Under the pieces are notes generated by a model. The model was not told the DNA's origin. It ran no database searches and saw only the letters and a list, made by a program, of their open reading frames with translations. A stretch of 10,810 nt of DNA, from the NCBI GenBank assembly GCA_002731985.1, contig PCCT01000089.1:1-10810 (forward strand). Reading direction: 5' to 3'. The stretch is from Nitrospinota bacterium (lineage in GTDB: Bacteria > Nitrospinota > Nitrospinia > Nitrospinales > VA-1). The position numbers and the translations under genes are program-made. Of the stretch, positions 2-9,848 are shown one piece after another; within the stretch, counting starts at the first letter, position 1, and each line of letters starts with the position of its first letter.

Positions 2-2068
2 AAAGCAGGTCATATCGTAAGTACTGAGTATGTTCGGTATCGATGGTGGGTTGACGTGGATATGGGTCTTGTTTTCTGGCATGACCATGCGTTCGGCGCG
101 ACCACCTGGCCGCACGGTGGTATCGGTTCTACAATTGTTGAGCCTTGGGGTTCTACGTATCATGATCCCACGACTGGCAAGCAGATCCGCAGTGGTGTTG
201 TAGCTGACATCCACGGAACAGAACCATTTGCTTATGGTCGAAATGGTAGTTTCCGTGAATTGGTAGCTCAACTTCACGATACCGTTCCGCATACAGCACA
301 GCTCGTTACCGAAGGGAACCCTCCGGGACTCTCTCGTGAGAATGCTATTGCGGCAGGTCAGTCCATTTCCTTTCAGATGCCTAAGACCATGCAGATGGTT
401 GCCTTTCCGCATCTGAACGGTGGAACGCATACAACGGGTGGCGGATTCAACTTCCGTGCGGCTTCGCTTTCCGCAAGGTTGTTAAGCAACTCTGATGCTT
501 CCAAAATGTTCAGTAGTAAAGTTCATGGAGATCCGTCAACACCAATGTTGCGTGCTTATCTCGGTGATAGCATTGTGTTTCGTATTCTTCATGGGATGAT
601 GAATGAAACACACACCTTTGTTGTTTCCGGTCACGGGTATCGTCCCGAGCGTTATGACCGCGACTCCAGAGTGACAAATGCTTTGCACATCGGTATCGCA
701 GAGCGCTATGACCTGGCCACCACGGCAGGTGGATATCAGCAGATGGCAGGTGACTATATGTATTACGATGGTCGTACCTCTCACCTGTCTGAAGGTAGTT
801 GGGGTATCATCCGTGTTCATGACAAACTGCAAAAGGATCTCAAAGTTCTTCCCGGAAACGAGAAGCCTAAGAAGTCCTCCACACAGCTTTGTCCAAGTGG
901 TGCGCCGGTGAAAAATTTCAGTGTGGTTGCAGTTAACACCAGCTTGAAATTCAATCCAAACACCGAGGATGAAATCGAAGTTGATTTTGAGCGTAAACTC
1001 CAACTGGCTAACGCAGACGCTAAAATTTTCGTCCTAGAAGGCGAAGTGGCTAAAGCCGCGGCCAAAGGACATTCTCCGCATCCGTTGACACTCCGTGCCA
1101 ACATTGGAGAATGTATCAAAATCAAACTGACCAACCGCTTGAAAAAAGGCAATGCCTCGCTTCATGCGAACAACATTGCGTTTGATCCTCTGGACTCTCA
1201 GGGAATCAACGTAGGTAATAATCCTGGTGACCAGACGGTTGCTCCTGGCAAGTCCAAGGTGTATACCTTCTATGCACATCAGGATTACAATATCAATGGA
1301 GCCTTGCTCTGGGATTTTGGTAACTTGACCGGAAACGTTCGAGACGGCCTGTTCGGTGGAATCATCATCGGTCCCAAAGGTTCTATCTACCGTGATCCAG
1401 AAACAGGGAAAGATATCTCCCTGGGTAACTCTTGGAAAGCGGACGTGATCATTGACAAGTCCTATCCGGAAAATCGGAACCTGGAAAACTACCGCGATTT
1501 CGCGCTATATTTTCAGGATGAGGACAACATCCTCGGTACGTCTTTCATGCCTTACCTGCAGAACGTTGCGGGACTCACAGGCGTGAACTACAGACTGGAA
1601 CCGTGGTCCTATCGTGAAGATGAAGGTTGTGAACTGGGTAATATGTTCACAGCCTGTGTCGCCGCGGCTAGTGATCCTGCGACTCCGACTCTGAAGGCAC
1701 ATGCCGGTGATCGTGTCATGATCAATATCTTTGGTGCTCATAATGAGCAGAACCAGATGTTTAATGTAGACGGTCACCAATGGCGTCGCCACTTGAACCA
1801 GGAGAACTCGGATATGATTGATGTAGAAGAGTTCGGCGGTGGCGAATACATCCAGGCCTTTATTAAGGCGGGTGGCACCTACAACAACCCCGGAACTTAC
1901 CTGTGGCTGAACGCGCGTACGCCGTATCAGCAAGCGGGTCAATGGGGTTACTTCAAGGTTCTGCCAGCGGGCGACCGCTCTGTCCTGCCATTGGGTGGAG
2001 CGTCACCGACAGGTGTTAAGTCTGCTTCAAAAGACGCTGGAGACGACGTGTTATCAATGAACCGCTAA
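2..2068 (+). CDS. Giant multicopper oxidase, copy 1 (C-terminal part, 5' end cut by window edge)
   Basis: The reading frame is open to the left edge, so the GTG at 56 is an internal Val codon and not a start. The 688 visible residues align from end to end with residues 952-1638 of the oxidase at 4932-9848, with only three one-residue indels, so the full protein is probably also about 1640 residues. The visible part holds the second type 2/3 copper motif FWHDH (His27 and His29 of the visible part, nt 80-88), then three more cupredoxin-type domains. These carry degenerate copper sites, for example the FDGRTSH-type YDGRTSH stretch where an active domain would have HCHxxxH. The other copper motifs would lie upstream, outside the window, so activity cannot be judged. 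The paired Cys of LCPSGAP and RANIGEC mark the start of the last domain pair. The family is predicted to be exported. It ends 35 nt before a strong terminator. The multicopper oxidase assignment is firm; the substrate is unknown. Confidence 0.93.
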   Translation, partial: KAGHIVSTEYVRYRWWVDVDMGLVFWHDHAFGATTWPHGGIGSTIVEPWGSTYHDPTTGKQIRSGVVADIHGTEPFAYGRNGSFRELVAQLHDTVPHTAQLVTEGNPPGLSRENAIAAGQSISFQMPKTMQMVAFPHLNGGTHTTGGGFNFRAASLSARLLSNSDASKMFSSKVHGDPSTPMLRAYLGDSIVFRILHGMMNETHTFVVSGHGYRPERYDRDSRVTNALHIGIAERYDLATTAGGYQQMAGDYMYYDGRTSHLSEGSWGIIRVHDKLQKDLKVLPGNEKPKKSSTQLCPSGAPVKNFSVVAVNTSLKFNPNTEDEIEVDFERKLQLANADAKIFVLEGEVAKAAAKGHSPHPLTLRANIGECIKIKLTNRLKKGNASLHANNIAFDPLDSQGINVGNNPGDQTVAPGKSKVYTFYAHQDYNINGALLWDFGNLTGNVRDGLFGGIIIGPKGSIYRDPETGKDISLGNSWKADVIIDKSYPENRNLENYRDFALYFQDEDNILGTSFMPYLQNVAGLTGVNYRLEPWSYREDEGCELGNMFTACVAAASDPATPTLKAHAGDRVMINIFGAHNEQNQMFNVDGHQWRRHLNQENSDMIDVEEFGGGEYIQAFIKAGGTYNNPGTYLWLNARTPYQQAGQWGYFKVLPAGDRSVLPLGGASPTGVKSASKDAGDDVLSMNR

Positions 2069-3214: not shown

Positions 3215-3712
3215 TTATTTGCTTTCGGGGCTTTTTTTGAGGAACTCTTTTCGTAGGAGCTGGATTCTCTCCAGGTGGTCGTGTTCAGCTTTTTGCAGCA
3301 GGACCAGCAAGGTTTTGACTTCAATGTTATTGCACATGTCAATCAGAAGTCCGTAGAACTCACCGGCCACCGTTTCTGCTTCCACCGCAAAATCCAAGGC
3401 TTTCTCTATGCCTTTGACCTTTGTGACATGCTCCATGATTTCTTCGATCGGAGGGAAAATATCAGTCTTGAATTCCTTCTCCATCATGTCTCTGAGTCCC
3501 TGATGGTCCTCCCAGCCGTATACCTGGTCGCCTTTTTTCTCCAGCATTTCCTTAAACTGGACTTCATGGAGAGCTTCTTCCCTGGCCATGACCTGGAGAA
3601 ATTCATTTACGGTGGGGTCATCAACGTGTTTTGATAGTTCCAGGTAGAAAAGTCTGCCATCACGCTCTATCTGGGTGGAAATTTCCAATAACTCTTTGTT
3701 TGATATAACCAT
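3215..3712 (-). CDS. Rubrerythrin/ferritin-like diiron protein
   Basis: This 165-residue cytoplasmic protein has no signal peptide and is predicted to be a four-helix bundle. It has two matching half-sites: Glu16 seven residues before Tyr23 with ExxH at Glu46-His49, and Glu113 seven residues before Tyr120 with ExxH at Glu143-His146. This is the repeated E...ExxH pattern of ferritin-like diiron proteins. It lacks the C-terminal rubredoxin Cys4 iron site of classical rubrerythrin and has only one Cys (127), so it is the short form. Relatives act in peroxide reduction or iron handling, and either would suit a cell oxidising metals, but which applies here is not visible. The gene is on the opposite strand to all others in the window, convergent with the cupredoxin-like gene and divergent from the sigma factor. 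The start has only a weak ribosome site (GGTAGG just upstream). Confidence 0.85.
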   Translation of the reverse strand: MVISNKELLEISTQIERDGRLFYLELSKHVDDPTVNEFLQVMAREEALHEVQFKEMLEKKGDQVYGWEDHQGLRDMMEKEFKTDIFPPIEEIMEHVTKVKGIEKALDFAVEAETVAGEFYGLLIDMCNNIEVKTLLVLLQKAEHDHLERIQLLRKEFLKKSPESK

Positions 3713-3918: not shown

Positions 3919-4503
3919 GATTTTTTAGTCAAATTCGCTACGAATCTGTCGGATAATAATGGAAGTCTGGACACTTTTAATAAGTACCTCCTTCCTCATG
4001 CGGCAGTAATTTACCGGTCTGCATTTCGTTTATGTGGAACCAGTCAGGGCTCTGAAGACCTGGTCCAGGAAACGTATTACATTGCGTTGAAAAACTTCGA
4101 CCAGTTAAAGGATCGGGGCAAAAGTAAATACTGGCTGTTCGCCATTCTAAGAAACTTGTTTCTCAAAGATATTGAAAAAGGCAAGAATAAGATTGAGATT
4201 GAGTTTGAAGCGGTTTGTGATACCCTCCACAGTAACATCCACCCTGAGAATGAATTTTTAAAAAATGAGGTTAAACAATACATCCAGTCTGCCATGGGCA
4301 AACTAGACGAAAGACTTCGTGAGCCGATCAGGCTTTTTTATTTTGAAGGTTTGTCCTACCAGGACATTTCCGATCAGCTAAATATTCCCATCGGCACGGT
4401 AATGTCCAGAATTGCCAGAGCTAAAGTTTACTTAAAACGCTATCTGGTGCGTTCGGGTGCATCTTCCTTCCCAAACGATGAAAAGCCGGATCAATTTCGG
4501 TAG
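3916..4503 (+). CDS. ECF-type RNA polymerase sigma factor
   Basis: I place the start at TTG 3916 (195 residues). The best ribosome site, AAAGGGG (3904-3910), lies 5 nt before it but would abut the alternative GTG at 3910. Numbering from that GTG, region 2 spans about residues 24-92, with the DLVQETYYIAL core helix (50-60) and a typical WLFAILRN segment (75-82). Region 4 spans about 125-178, with a helix-turn-helix (YQDISDQLNIPIGTVMSR, 150-167) that reads the -35 element. There is no region 1 or 3, as is normal for ECF factors. No anti-sigma factor or membrane partner is encoded on either side, so it may be controlled transcriptionally or by a distant partner. It lies directly upstream of oxidase copy 2 with no terminator seen at its own end, so read-through into the oxidase leader is possible. 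Its regulon is unknown; copy 2 is a natural guess. Confidence 0.9.
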   Translation: MDFLVKFATNLSDNNGSLDTFNKYLLPHAAVIYRSAFRLCGTSQGSEDLVQETYYIALKNFDQLKDRGKSKYWLFAILRNLFLKDIEKGKNKIEIEFEAVCDTLHSNIHPENEFLKNEVKQYIQSAMGKLDERLREPIRLFYFEGLSYQDISDQLNIPIGTVMSRIARAKVYLKRYLVRSGASSFPNDEKPDQFR

Positions 4504-4665
4504 ATTTCGAAGGATCCCTCCCTTTCATTCCATCATTTCCTCCGCTCTAGAATTGTTCTGTTATGCGATGTCAAAATAGGCCTTTCCCCTTTTTTTTAAA
4601 AGCTTTCACTATTTTAAATAAATTTTAATTTAAGGGAATATTTATCCTGCTTTTGTATCTTTAAT

Positions 4666-4721
4666 AGTGCCGCTCCCAGCAGGAGAGGCCCCTGTCGTGG
4701 GGTCCATTACGGGCGGTTGCT
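4666..4721 (+). ncRNA. Candidate structured leader RNA (three-way junction)
   Basis: By hand this GC-rich block folds into a closing stem (AGTGCCG 4666-4672 with CGGTTGCT 4714-4721, one bulged T), hairpin 1 (CTCC 4673-4676 with GGAG 4682-4685, loop CAGCA) and hairpin 2 (GGCCCC 4687-4692 with GGGGTCC 4699-4705, one bulged T). ATTACGGG (4706-4713) is left as junction sequence. A competing pairing exists: TCCTGCT (4645-4651) is perfectly complementary to AGCAGGA (4678-4684) and would break hairpin 1. I do not recognise it as a known riboswitch class. It could also be a chance fold. Confidence 0.35.
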
Positions 4722-4780
4722 TAGTTAACTACTTGAAAGTTAAAGTTTTAAATATTTTGTGGGATTGCATTCGGTCCTTG

Positions 4781-4840
4781 AATCGGATGGTTCTTACGAA
4801 TTAGATAATTAGATAATCGGATGGTTCTTACGAATTAGAT
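4781..4840 (+). repeat. Perfect 26-bp tandem direct repeat, 34-bp period
   Basis: The two units at 4781-4806 and 4815-4840 are identical over 26 nt, from AATCGG to AATTAGAT. The 8-nt spacer (4807-4814) is itself AATTAGAT, a third copy of the unit's last 8 nt. Each unit contains TTC-TTAC-GAA, a short inverted repeat. It could be a pair of binding sites for a regulator, or a recent slippage duplication. Confidence 0.9.
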
Positions 4841-4882
4841 GTTTTTTTCAGGGGGGAAGAAGTTTTTTCCACCAAGTCTTAT

Positions 4883-4911
4883 CCCAAAACTACAGGTTTT
4901 TGGGCTTTTTT
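4883..4911 (+). terminator. Intrinsic terminator just before the oxidase gene (likely attenuator)
   Basis: CCCAAAA (4883-4889) pairs with TTTTGGG (4898-4904) around an 8-nt loop, and six T follow (4906-4911). It ends 20 nt before the ATG at 4932, leaving no room for a promoter that would still transcribe the ribosome site. Transcripts of the oxidase gene must therefore pass through it, as in an attenuator. TTTTGTGGGA (4755-4764) could pair with TCCCAAAA with a 2-nt bulge and act as an antiterminator; that part is inferred. Confidence 0.65.
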
Positions 4912-4918
4912 ATTAACC

Positions 4919-4924
4919 GGAGGG
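4919..4924 (+). promoter_or_regulatory. Ribosome binding site of oxidase copy 2
   Basis: GGAGGG lies 7 nt before ATG 4932 and fixes that start over the later Met codons in the signal peptide. Confidence 0.85.
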
Positions 4925-4931
4925 TGTATTT

Positions 4932-7900
4932 ATGACTTGCAACACTTTTACCAACCCATCGCGAGGTTTGGGCAGGTGGATCATGATGATCTTGACCTTT
5001 GCCTTAGGCCTTGGCTTGAATCCCGCTTTTGCGGCATCAGGTCCTGAGGATCACAAACAGGGGCATGATCGACCGGTCTGGCTGGACAAGCTGGAAAATC
5101 AGGTAAACTATGAAGAAGTGATGAGCGGCATGGATGGTCGCCAGGATCGCCTGAACAACACGTTCATGAAGCTGATGGACCGTTTACAGGGTAAAATCAA
5201 GGAACATGCCAGCCCGGCTTCTCAAGGTGGCGCATTCCACGATTCTTGGTCGGCGCATCAGTTGGGCCAGAGCTACCTGCTTGGACCTTCAGAGGCAGGT
5301 TTGACTGTGAACCAGGGCTCTCATTGTCCGAGCAATGCTCCGGTCAAGCAGTACAATGTTTCGGCAATCAATGTCGAAATCATGCTGAACCAGTGGGGCG
5401 ATTATTTCCCTGGCTACATGTATGCTCTTGATTCGGAGATCAGCAAGGTTCGCACTGAAGAGAAGGCCAATGCCAAGTCTCGGGATGATGAGATGGACCC
5501 GGGTATGGTTTCGACCGGAATTCAAGGCGATGCCATTCAGCCATTGGTATTGCGTGCTAACCAAGGCGACTGTGTTCGCGTTCATTTCTCCAACAAGGTA
5601 GAAGATGAGGATGCCGGATTCCAGGTTCTTGGATCGGCTATGATCATCAGTTCTTCCGGTCTTCCGGCTTCTGCGGCTTCTGCGGGCGGTATCACCAAAT
5701 CTGGTGGCTCTCAGGATTTCGAGTGGATGATTCCAATCGATGAGCAGGAAGGTAGTCACATGATCATGAGTCGCGCAGGCCGAGATCCTTCGGCTCTCGG
5801 TTTGATCGGTGCGTTCATTGTTGAGCCTAAAGGTTCTACATACTTGAGCCCTTACACCGGGCAACCCCGGGCAATTGGCTGGCAATCGATGATCGCTAAT
5901 GAAAACGCAAAAGACTTTCGTGAGTTTGTTCTGTTCTATCACGAAGTCGGCGATGAATCTTTCCGCCCTCTGAATCGACACGGCGAAATGATTCCTCAGC
6001 GCGATCCGTTGACTGACGCTTATCGTCCTTCAGCACGTGCTATGAACTACCGTTCTGAGCCTTTCGGTATCAACAACCTGGCGGTACAGGACAAAATGTT
6101 TCATTATGAAGACGAATCATTGTCTTACAGTTCTTATACTTTTGCTGATGTTCCAACTACCATTCCACGTTCGTACTTGGGTGACCCAGCAAAATTTCGC
6201 TTGATCCATGGTGGTGGTGAGGTGTTCCATTCGCATCATCCGCATGGTGGTTCCATTCGCTGGACGCGTTCTCCGCAACGCGAAGCGCAGTTGCCGAACC
6301 TTACCCAGGCTGCCTGGGACGGTCCGGTTAAATACCCGGTTGTCCGCACCACGACTGACCGTGTAGACGTTGAAGTTATCGGACCTGCTGAGGCACTTGA
6401 CCTTGAGACCGAATGTGGTTCTGGTCTGTGTCAGCGTTTGGCTGGTGACTTCCTGTTCCACTGCCATGTAGCGCATCACTATGTTGCTGGTATGTGGGGA
6501 TACTGGAGGGTTTATAACACCCTTCAAAACGGCAACTACCCACTGGGTAGTACCGATGTTATGATTCCATTGGTTGAGCTTCCTGACCGTGCAGGCCGCA
6601 TCCCTCAGGGTGTATCCTCAGATCAGTTGGTCGGCCAGACAATGGACTGGTTTGGTACCAAGTTCAAAATCACCGGTAGCGGTGAGAGTGACTGGACCAA
6701 AGAAACCCGTGTTGTAAACGTTAAAGACTGGGTTAAGTACATGTTGCCTCCTATGGGCAAACCCGGACACTCTGACGATGAAGTAACCCAGGTAAAATCC
6801 AATGACGGTTCTGTATGGGATTATGCTTGGAAAGGTAATCAAGCTCTGTCTGAGCGTGAACCTACCTATAAAGTAGTAAAATACATTTCTCCACGTCCTG
6901 GCAAGCGTCATCCGCTTCAGTTCGATGAGAAAGGTAAACTGGCATGGCCTCACATGACACCTCACTTTGGCAAGCGTGTTCCTTTCGCGCGAAACCATGG
7001 TGGTGCTCCATGGTTGGAGCCGTTCCATTCACAGCCAGATGACACTGTCATTACCGCTACGGAATCTGGTAGTGGACGGTCTGGTCCAAATGTAGAAAAT
7101 ACGACACCAGCAAAACCGGGTGAGCAAGGCCGTTGGAGTCTTTGTCCGAAGGGTGCTGGTCGTAAGCAGTACAATCTTGTGTTCATCAATACGCCGATTG
7201 AGTTGTCCGGTGCTATTGGAGATACGCCTCCGATCATCGATAAGTACGGTCTCATCTACGTACTCGACGAAGAGATGGCGGAAGTGAAGGCTGATCCTAA
7301 GAAAGCCATTCCGCTGGTTATCCGCGCAAACGTTTATGACTGTGTGGATCTTCTTTTGACCAGTGAGTGGAATGACGATGACTTCACTAACTTCCAGATG
7401 TCCAAGCTCAACATCCATCCGCACTTTTTCCAGTTCGACAACCAAGCGTCGGATGGTGTTATCTCGGGCTTCTCGTATGACCAGTCTATGCGGTCATACA
7501 GGCAGTTCACTAAGAAGATGAAAGATGGTCATCATGTTGGCATGCCTATGCCAATGAACGCCAAGCTTTTGAAAGATACAGGCCCTGGTGATCAGACCAT
7601 TGAAATCCAGATGGCTGATGGTGCCACTCCGTTCCACGCTGGTGCTGACATCATGGTTGGAATCGAAGTGCCCAATGGCAAAGATGCTCGTTGGATCAAA
7701 TCTATATCTCCAGATCCAACTAAAGGTATTGCTAAAGACGGTAAGTACAGCATCACCTTTACGGAAGGTATGACCCACGCCCACACGGCTGGACATATCG
7801 TGAGCACCGAGTTCGTACGTTACCGATGGTGGGTTGACGTCGACCTCGGACTTGTTTTCTGGCATGACCATGCGTTCGGTGCTACAACCTGGCCGCACGG

Positions 7901-9848
7901 TGGTATCGGAACGACGGTTGTTGAGCCTTGGGGATCTACGTATCATGATCCTAAGACTGGCAAACCGATTCGTACTGGTACAGTAGCAGACATTCATGGA
8001 ACAGAGCCTTTCGCTTATAGCCGAAATGGTAGTTTCCGTGAAATCGTTGTTCAAACACATGACACCGTTCCGCATACAGCACAGCTCGTTACCAAAGGGA
8101 ATCCTCCGGGACTCTCTCGTGAGAATGCTATTGCGGCGGGACAGTCCATTTCTTTCCAGATGCCTAGTACTATGCTGGAAGTGGCTTTCCCACATCTGAA
8201 CGGTGGAACACATACAACAGGTGGCGGATTCAATTTCCGTGCGGCTTCTCTTTCTGCACGGTTGAAGAGCAACTCCGACCCTTCCCAGATGTTTAGCAGT
8301 GTAGTTCATGGGGATCCTGATACTCCTATGATCAGTGCATATCTTGGGGATAATGTTGTGTTCCGTCTGTTGCATGGCATGATGAACGAAACCCACATGT
8401 TCTCAGTTTCTGGACATGGGTTCCGTCCTGAGCGTTATGATCCGCAGTCTCGCATGACTAACACACTGCATGTAGGTATTGCAGAGCGTTATGACCTGGC
8501 CACAACGGCGGGTGGTTACCAGCAGATGGCGGGTGATTATCTGTACTTCGATGGTCGTACTTCTCACCTGTCAGAAGGTAGCTGGAGTATTCTCCGGGTA
8601 CATGACAAACTTCAGGGCGATCTTAAAGTACTACCTGGCAACGACAACCCCAAGAAGTGGAAACGTGGGGTTGTTTGTCCAAGTGGTGCGCCTACGAAGA
8701 ATTTCAGCGTAGTAGCTATCAACAAAGCGCTGGATTTCAACGCGAAGGCAGAAGATCAGATCGAAGTTGACTTCGAGCGTAAGCTGGTTCTCGCTAACTC
8801 TGCGGGCAAGATTTTTGCTCTTGAGGGTGAAGCGGCCAGAACAGCTTCGGGTGGGGCTCCTCATCCGTTGACGCTTCGTGCCAACATTGGAGACTGTATC
8901 AAAATCAAGCTGTCCAATCGCTTGAAGAGTGGTAATGCCTCCATGCATATCAACAACGTTGCTTTTGATCCTATGACTTCTCAGGGAATCAACGTTGGTA
9001 ACAACTCTGGTGACCAGACTGTTCAGCCAGGTAAATCTAAGACCTACACCTACTATGCACATCCTGACTACGGTCAGACCGGTAGTGTGATCTGGGATTT
9101 TGGTAACCTGACTGGTAATGTTCGAGACGGTCTCTATGGCGGTCTCATCATTGGTCCCAGAGGTTCTGTATACCGTGATCCAGCAACAGGGAAAGACATC
9201 TCTCTGGGCAACTCCTGGAAAGCGGACGTTATCATCGATAAGTCTTATCCGGAAAATCGAAATCGTGAGAACTATCGTGATTTCGCGCTGTATTTCCAGG
9301 ATGAGGACAACATCCTCGGTACGTCTTTCATGCCTTACCTGCAGAACGTTGCGGGACTCACGGGCGTGAACTACAGGTTGGAGCCGTGGTCCTATCGTGA
9401 AGATGAAGGTTGTGAACTGGGTAATATGTTCACACCTTGTGTTGCCGCGGCTAGTGATCCTGCGACTCCGACTCTGAAGGCACATGCCGGAGATCTCGTC
9501 ATGATCAACATCATGGGTGCTCATAATGAGCAGAACCAGATGTTTAATGTAGACGGCCATCAATGGCGTCGACATCTTCGACAGGTCGGTTCAGATATGA
9601 TCGACACCGAAGAGTTCGGCGGCGGCGAGTGGATTCAGGCCGAAATGACTGCTGGTGGTACCTACAGCAACCCTGGAACTTACCTGTGGATGAATGCTCG
9701 TACTCCGTACCAGCAGGCAGGTCAGTGGGGTTACTTCAAGGTTCTGCCTGCGGGCGATCGTTCTGTCCTTCCGTTGGGTGGCGCATCTGCTAAAGGTGTA
9801 AAATCTGCTTCAGCGGCTGGCGACGATGTGTTATCGATGAATAAGTAG
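4932..9848 (+). CDS. Giant six-domain multicopper oxidase, MofA/MnxG-like layout (copy 2)
   Basis: The 1638-residue protein has a signal peptide (hydrophobic 17-31, probable cut after AFA at 35) and so is exported. It contains three cupredoxin domain pairs (about 130-530, 735-1230, 1245-1610), each opening with a CP...K.[YF].V motif and a later RAN..[DE]C. Copper ligands are complete but permuted: HxxHxH at His433/436/438 and HCHxxxHxxxxM at His510, Cys511, His512, His516, Met521 (type 1 site) lie in domain 2; HPH (829-831) and WHDH (His978/980) lie in domain 3. The trinuclear centre should therefore form between domains 2 and 3. Domains 1, 4, 5 and 6 have lost their ligands. About 100 extra His/Met-rich residues sit in domain 3 (about 848-955), and a linker of about 190 residues separates pairs 1 and 2. 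Length and layout resemble bacterial Mn(II)-oxidising enzymes, but the substrate is not proven. It is a close paralogue of the gene at the left edge. Confidence 0.93.
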   Translation: MTCNTFTNPSRGLGRWIMMILTFALGLGLNPAFAASGPEDHKQGHDRPVWLDKLENQVNYEEVMSGMDGRQDRLNNTFMKLMDRLQGKIKEHASPASQGGAFHDSWSAHQLGQSYLLGPSEAGLTVNQGSHCPSNAPVKQYNVSAINVEIMLNQWGDYFPGYMYALDSEISKVRTEEKANAKSRDDEMDPGMVSTGIQGDAIQPLVLRANQGDCVRVHFSNKVEDEDAGFQVLGSAMIISSSGLPASAASAGGITKSGGSQDFEWMIPIDEQEGSHMIMSRAGRDPSALGLIGAFIVEPKGSTYLSPYTGQPRAIGWQSMIANENAKDFREFVLFYHEVGDESFRPLNRHGEMIPQRDPLTDAYRPSARAMNYRSEPFGINNLAVQDKMFHYEDESLSYSSYTFADVPTTIPRSYLGDPAKFRLIHGGGEVFHSHHPHGGSIRWTRSPQREAQLPNLTQAAWDGPVKYPVVRTTTDRVDVEVIGPAEALDLETECGSGLCQRLAGDFLFHCHVAHHYVAGMWGYWRVYNTLQNGNYPLGSTDVMIPLVELPDRAGRIPQGVSSDQLVGQTMDWFGTKFKITGSGESDWTKETRVVNVKDWVKYMLPPMGKPGHSDDEVTQVKSNDGSVWDYAWKGNQALSEREPTYKVVKYISPRPGKRHPLQFDEKGKLAWPHMTPHFGKRVPFARNHGGAPWLEPFHSQPDDTVITATESGSGRSGPNVENTTPAKPGEQGRWSLCPKGAGRKQYNLVFINTPIELSGAIGDTPPIIDKYGLIYVLDEEMAEVKADPKKAIPLVIRANVYDCVDLLLTSEWNDDDFTNFQMSKLNIHPHFFQFDNQASDGVISGFSYDQSMRSYRQFTKKMKDGHHVGMPMPMNAKLLKDTGPGDQTIEIQMADGATPFHAGADIMVGIEVPNGKDARWIKSISPDPTKGIAKDGKYSITFTEGMTHAHTAGHIVSTEFVRYRWWVDVDLGLVFWHDHAFGATTWPHGGIGTTVVEPWGSTYHDPKTGKPIRTGTVADIHGTEPFAYSRNGSFREIVVQTHDTVPHTAQLVTKGNPPGLSRENAIAAGQSISFQMPSTMLEVAFPHLNGGTHTTGGGFNFRAASLSARLKSNSDPSQMFSSVVHGDPDTPMISAYLGDNVVFRLLHGMMNETHMFSVSGHGFRPERYDPQSRMTNTLHVGIAERYDLATTAGGYQQMAGDYLYFDGRTSHLSEGSWSILRVHDKLQGDLKVLPGNDNPKKWKRGVVCPSGAPTKNFSVVAINKALDFNAKAEDQIEVDFERKLVLANSAGKIFALEGEAARTASGGAPHPLTLRANIGDCIKIKLSNRLKSGNASMHINNVAFDPMTSQGINVGNNSGDQTVQPGKSKTYTYYAHPDYGQTGSVIWDFGNLTGNVRDGLYGGLIIGPRGSVYRDPATGKDISLGNSWKADVIIDKSYPENRNRENYRDFALYFQDEDNILGTSFMPYLQNVAGLTGVNYRLEPWSYREDEGCELGNMFTPCVAAASDPATPTLKAHAGDLVMINIMGAHNEQNQMFNVDGHQWRRHLRQVGSDMIDTEEFGGGEWIQAEMTAGGTYSNPGTYLWMNARTPYQQAGQWGYFKVLPAGDRSVLPLGGASAKGVKSASAAGDDVLSMNK

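Follow-up and report, generated by a model that had tools for sequence, protein, structure and literature searches.

The stretch of DNA analysed here (contig PCCT01000089.1, 10,810 nt, called the window) belongs to a metagenome-assembled genome (MAG) of a Nitrospinota bacterium (G000, 65% complete) and carries two giant multicopper oxidase genes, which are the only two oxidase matches of this genome. Upstream of the second oxidase gene lies the gene of a short sigma factor, and the DNA between these two genes, including the leader of the oxidase mRNA, is the subject of this study. The sigma factor scored 77.7 bits against the NCBIfam sigma70-ECF superfamily (cut-off 42.9 bits), which places it among the extracytoplasmic function (ECF) sigma factors, and its length together with the presence of sigma regions 2 and 4 only (Pfam) fits the definition of this class. 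An initial annotation, in which neither the ECF sigma gene nor the promoter-like element at 4634-4662 was mentioned, had proposed a riboswitch-like or attenuated leader at 4640-4931.

Oxidase loci were gathered from GTDB genomes; among the named genomes, relatives of the window oxidase were mostly found in Nitrospina-type MAGs. Nine of the 75 named loci were dropped since the 5' end of the oxidase or the upstream DNA was missing, and 66 were examined. In 13 of these 66 loci the gene immediately before the oxidase encoded an ECF homologue, several of the remaining ones having too little upstream DNA to judge, and the ECF match ended 329-437 nt before the oxidase start. In the 46 genomes of the family, the ECF gene was present in 21 genomes (23 loci) and was followed by an oxidase gene in 21 of the 23 loci. 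Removal of duplicates, of L098 (oxidase start unresolved) and of L099 and L101 (no oxidase match) left 26 distinct leaders, counting L018 and L028, whose contigs end before the position of the ECF gene. The predicted distance from the transcription start (+1) to the ATG ranged from 98 to 265 nt across leaders.

Comparison of these leaders establishes, at the level of sequence, that the most strongly conserved element between the ECF gene and the oxidase is a bipartite DNA motif, GGGAATAA-N13-GTATCTwT, and that this motif is tied to the ECF gene. In 22 of the 26 leaders the best bipartite match was this motif or a near variant of it, always with a 13-nt spacer. Relative entropy per column (ungapped, weighted by group, 22 leaders with spacing 13, the other four excluded) amounted to 1.76 bits for the -35 octamer and 1.53 for the -10 octamer; the spacer had 0.48 and the first 50 nt downstream of the predicted start 0.23. 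A motif score of at least 21 at fixed spacing was reached in 12 of the 13 named loci with ECF gene and oxidase, versus 1 of 48 controls, for which named oxidase loci were taken that lack an ECF match and have 330 nt or more of upstream DNA. A pattern search of the 46 family genomes returned 43 sites, compared to 8 for a reversed-pattern control, and 20 of the 43 were oxidase promoters, all with one spacing. A DNA search matched the leader in one of 40 other genomes, G006, which belongs to the same genus as the window; the match consisted of two pieces with 74% identity over 4640-4750 and 82% over 4866-4931. The locus of ECF gene and oxidase was found in two of the eight searched genomes of this genus. 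In genus g9 (G015) the most conserved piece of the leader, from TTTAATTTAAGGGAATA to GTATCTTTAAT, is found again with a different spacer. Passages of PMC10771440 describe ECF promoters that have GGAACTT as their -35 element and spacers of 16-19 bp. Since conservation is confined to two elements, excluding both the spacer and the RNA block, and since the motif goes with the ECF gene, it behaves like a sigma-dependent promoter and not like an aptamer: 4634-4662 looks like a promoter of the ECF-sigma type, and from the tight ECF-motif association we infer that it is read by the neighbouring sigma factor.

Table 1. Features of the window, with the regulatory elements between the ECF sigma gene and the second oxidase gene as predicted.
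Feature	Position	Strand	Basis or remark
First giant oxidase gene (copy 1), 3' part	2-2068		Contig start falls inside copy 1
Open reading frame (ORF), 268 aa	2272-3078		Carboxypeptidase-regulatory-like match
Rubrerythrin/ferritin-like gene	3215-3712	(-)	Pfam PF02915; divergent from the ECF gene
ECF sigma factor gene, 197 aa	3910-4503	(+)	Pfam Sigma70_r2, r4, r4_2; NCBIfam sigma70-ECF
Putative -35 element GGGAATAT, consensus GGGAATAA	4634-4641	(+)	Columns GGAATA nearly invariant, 22 leaders of 9 groups
Putative -10 element GTATCTTT, consensus GTATCTAT	4655-4662	(+)	GTATCT nearly invariant, 22 leaders
Predicted transcription start, within a few nt	4667	(+)	Inferred from the -10 position
5' stem-loop region: outer stem 4669-4675/4711-4717, inner hairpin 4687-4692/4699-4704	4669-4717	(+)	Predicted fold
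Hairpin just upstream of the terminator-like hairpin	4853-4873	(+)	-6.2 kcal/mol; G006 counterpart -8.3 kcal/mol
Terminator-like hairpin 4883-4904 with T-run 4906-4911	4883-4911	(+)	Terminator scan, -6.1 kcal/mol
Ribosome-binding site CGGAGGG	4918-4924	(+)	Read from the sequence
Second giant multicopper oxidase gene, 1638 aa, ATG at 4932	4932-9848	(+)	Pfam Cu-oxidase_3
Cytochrome-c gene	from 10051		

Several observations weigh against this reading. The single miss among the 13 ECF loci (L010) fits the motif only with a spacing of 14; in L018 and L022 the best motif score was just equal to the highest of 60 shuffles, and L020 exceeded that level by one, all three having a diverged -10 element (GGTCT). 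The contrast in scores is partly circular because the motif and its weights were derived from the same leaders, the weights being set after the leaders had been seen. In addition, more than half of the pattern sites (23 of 43) lie elsewhere than before oxidase genes. A wider regulon defined by the exact motif was considered and rejected, as the other spacing-14 matches that were read have no gene in common. Seven of the 23 non-oxidase sites are alike (GGGAATAGAyC...AAGTATCT, spacing 15, in seven genomes; L107, L108, L109 and similar sites in genus g8), and in the three loci read a CBS-domain-like gene was seen by eye downstream; these sites are perhaps a second target of the sigma factor or the promoter of another sigma factor. 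In the leaders of genus g8, an inverted repeat resembling TTGTAG-N8-CTACAA, imperfect in several species, was noticed by eye about 30-55 nt upstream of the -35 element and is possibly an operator for a second regulator.

On balance, 4634-4931 is probably a dedicated ECF-sigma promoter followed by the 5' untranslated region of the oxidase mRNA. The ECF sigma factor would direct RNA polymerase to the bipartite motif, transcription would begin near the predicted start, and the main regulatory decision would be taken at initiation, through the amount or the activity of the sigma factor. The GC-rich block would then form the first stretch of the RNA, in which a stem-loop at the 5' end may shield the long mRNA or pace early elongation. 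The hairpin with six T residues (T6) in front of the ribosome-binding site would act, in the genus of the window, as no more than a weak and possibly partial attenuator and would also halt read-through from the ECF gene. That the signal is a metal or a redox state is a guess.

The GC-rich block (4666-4721) is present in the sequence as initially described, and a predicted fold at this position relative to +1 recurs between genera. Segments of 45 nt starting at the predicted +1 had a mean fold z of -1.33 in the 26 leaders (mean of nine group means -1.18), compared to -0.29 for the segment 15 nt upstream of +1 and values between -0.01 and -0.35 in the four segments that follow. Across the genera the +1 hairpins agree in position and differ in sequence, which fits a 5' stem-loop better than an aptamer. 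In genus g8, a hand-made structural alignment of the +1 hairpin contained 92% standard pairs and two-sided changes at four of eight positions; with the 3' arm re-gapped by hand, the paired fraction was 0.92 compared to 0.86 in shuffles (P 0.005) and two-sided changes numbered 4 compared to 1.5 (P 0.016). This alignment is biased towards the structure, the sequences are related, and the support appears only after re-gapping of the 3' arm. Comparison of the window with G006 by eye showed that the inner hairpin keeps one pair via a C-G to T-A change and that the outer stem pairs in G006 only in a shifted register. The location of the fold suggests a function in mRNA protection or in the control of early elongation. 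Further downstream, the leader contains a 26-nt exact direct repeat (4781-4806 and 4815-4840, (+) strand); the stretch 4781-4840 is missing in G006.

This part of the account is burdened by several results. A 45-nt segment starting at -60, thus on the DNA side of the promoter, also had a mean fold z of -1.15, and because of this excess the fold z is not proof of an RNA function. With 55-nt segments at +1 the mean z was -0.93, and only 5 of the 26 leaders were below -1.5. The window's own GC-rich block was no more stable than shuffles (z about -0.2; -0.22 in the 55-nt segment), and against dinucleotide shuffles the fold energies of leader, block and terminator stretch remained at chance level (z -0.15 to -1.25). 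When RNAalifold was run on an automatic MAFFT alignment of the g8 sequences, the covariation term was +0.39 with two-sided changes in 2 of 18 pairs, which gives no support to the hairpin.

The terminator-like hairpin, found where the initial annotation had placed it with the ribosome-binding site directly after it, consists of arms CCCAAAAC..GTTTTTGGG followed by C and T6 and ends 20 nt before the ATG. Having seven pairs (three of them GC) and T6, it qualifies as a predicted intrinsic terminator. By sequence comparison it occurs in two species: the counterpart in G006 (-5.5 kcal/mol) is preserved despite changed stem bases, with stem-pair probabilities of 0.965 in the window leader and 0.999 in the G006 leader, and none was found in G015. 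The earlier assertion that a terminator in this place makes sense only if it is conditional was too strong, as the hairpin is weak and is also, according to the scan, the first terminator-like site met by read-through from the ECF gene in the window. A scan of the whole window returned 18 terminator-like sites compared to 11.2 +/- 4.0 in shuffles, i.e. within two standard deviations.

What these hairpins do was weighed among three alternatives to the promoter with an ordinary folded leader. Attenuation is a tentative possibility: polymerase coming from the ECF promoter would encounter leader terminators, which lie ahead of the ATG in the genus of the window and just past +1 in genus g8, and a signal or factor would let it pass. 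The 26 leaders contained 15 terminator-like sites compared to 5.2 expected from shuffles, and owing to this roughly threefold enrichment, which speaks against the promoter account in its simplest form, attenuation stays in play and the leader may do more than that account says. The T-run began within 60 nt of +1 in 7 of the 26 leaders compared to 1.2 expected, five of the eight g8 leaders combine a +1 hairpin of -9 to -15.5 kcal/mol having two-sided stem changes with a T-run, and the persistence of hairpin and T6 in G000 and G006 points in the same direction. However, a stricter scan found 5 sites compared to 2.7 expected, the position of the terminators varies between genera, and the 15 sites are not independent events because related leaders were counted separately. 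Just 3 of the 26 leaders, those of the window, of G006 and of L093 (where the site is unrelated), had a site within 45 nt of the ATG, compared to 1.1 expected. Nor does the pairing that an attenuator would employ exceed chance: the best duplex between the 5' arm of the terminator and the upstream leader was matched by 851 of 1000 shuffles in the window and 196 of 1000 in G006, so that a mutually exclusive antiterminator was not found in either leader. It is unlikely that the hairpin with T6 mainly insulates, ending read-through from the ECF gene while the oxidase promoter is strong enough to bear a partial loss. Between the ECF stop and the -35 element no terminator-like site was detected in 25 of the 26 leaders (L018 and L028 being only partly covered), and in the window read-through would first meet this hairpin; yet the oxidase's own transcript would be cut too, and in 23 of the 26 leaders the last 45 nt before the ATG are free of terminator-like sites.

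A ligand-binding riboswitch for a metal or redox state in 4640-4931 is highly improbable. The order of elements, a folded GC-rich block and then a terminator-like hairpin before the start codon, was what suggested it, and the folded leader with its terminator-like hairpin stands, as does a possible attenuation; the riboswitch itself is unsupported. The initial annotation recognised no known riboswitch class, in agreement with Rfam scans, which gave no riboswitch match in the window, in 4500-4990 at a permissive threshold or in 11 related loci at the gathering threshold. A core conserved across orthologues, as a new class of aptamer would have, was not found either: the 22 ungapped leaders show almost no sequence conservation in the 50 nt after the predicted start, where the aptamer (4666-4721) would lie, and the leaders differ in length as stated above. 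As to the two competing arms that had been proposed, TCCTGCT (4645-4651) is indeed complementary to AGCAGGA (4678-4684) but falls in the promoter spacer upstream of the predicted start and should therefore be absent from the RNA, and TTTTGTGGGA (4755-4764) is complementary, with a 2-nt bulge, to TCCCAAAA but pairs no better than shuffled sequences.

Among known systems, the closest functional analogue is CorE, an ECF sigma factor of Myxococcus xanthus that depends on copper, has no linked anti-sigma factor and regulates the adjoining multicopper oxidase gene cuoB; CorE-like factors are defined by a cysteine-rich C-terminal domain with four invariant cysteines (both as given in the part of PMC3107203 drawn on). 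The sigma factor of the window also adjoins a multicopper oxidase gene, which it is presumed to drive directly, and may by analogy work like CorE. Unlike CorE, it contains two cysteines in total (Cys42 and Cys103), none of them in the C-terminal tail, and is not a CorE member because the cysteine-rich domain is absent. Control by copper through an upstream ORF is reportedly the subject of one study (PMC9426467). Promoters of the GGAAC type (RpoE/sigmaE; PMC10771440, in part) share the GGAA core of the -35 element and the fixed distance to a short -10 element, whereas here the -35 element is GGGAATAA instead of GGAACTT and the -10 element GTATCTwT. Like the MnxG-type manganese oxidases, the window oxidase is a giant multicopper protein, but with 115.5 bits against the NCBIfam MnxG equivalog NF041487 (cut-off 3100 bits) the similarity is partial and it falls outside this equivalog. 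For Nitrospina gracilis, the genome paper (PMC3578206, in part) describes a putative multicopper oxidase which resembles the manganese oxidase of Bacillus SG-1 and for which a protective role against reactive oxygen was suggested; in the main text of that paper the terms 'sigma factor' and 'ECF' occur 0 times. A literature search combining Nitrospina with ECF sigma factors returned nothing judged related, going by the entries as listed.

The locus adds an example to a known kind, the ECF sigma factor with its promoter; across Nitrospinota this pair goes with a giant copper oxidase gene, and the leader behind it is folded and variable. Some of the major nitrite oxidisers of the sea are Nitrospinota, and the role of the giant MnxG-like copper oxidase that they carry is unsettled. 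The conserved pair provides a handle on when the ECF-controlled oxidase copy is switched on: from the motif the start site can be predicted to a few bases for many species, and the pair separates the ECF-controlled copy from copies without an ECF gene. The case also illustrates that an apparent 'riboswitch' can turn out to be a promoter with an ordinary folded leader.

The most consistent neighbour of the ECF gene is the rubrerythrin-like gene, which was the nearest gene upstream in all 10 of the 13 loci that were scanned with Pfam, and, judged by eye, all 13 named ECF loci have an ORF resembling it at this place. Judged from this gene order, it could be part of the module, sensing or answering the same stress. 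The other neighbours of the ECF gene were judged from ORF starts only, and on that basis no anti-sigma gene was recognised beside the window sigma. Cys42 and Cys103 are each present in 21 of 27 aligned homologues. We consider it rather improbable that the locus is a one-sigma/one-target system in which the ECF sigma factor fires a single oxidase promoter and the RNA carries a lineage-specific terminator, combining initiation control and attenuation without a conserved aptamer; perhaps the sigma factor would then sense redox state or metal via Cys42/Cys103 or the divergent rubrerythrin-like protein. Autoregulation of the ECF gene through the same motif was considered as well, but upstream of the ECF genes (window and 13 loci) the best score was 15-19, and there is therefore no sign of autoregulation by that motif. 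L006 and its counterpart G042:C44 contain two ECF genes about 7.7 kb apart with the promoter motif after each, and in G042 an oxidase gene follows both.

Oxidase copies without an ECF gene have another leader, observed at L008:5806-5985 and in 10 similar leaders, in which a second, small hairpin accompanies a conserved one around AAGGGGTGGA; the L008 oxidase gene sits, judged by eye, behind an apparent DegP-type protease gene. No Rfam match was obtained in these leaders, and the manganese riboswitch yybP-ykoY was rejected for L008 as the Rfam scan gave no such match. In the alignment of the non-ECF leaders, 5 of 16 predicted pairs had two-sided changes with a covariation term of just +0.1, and this leader is perhaps a better candidate for an RNA element than 4640-4931.
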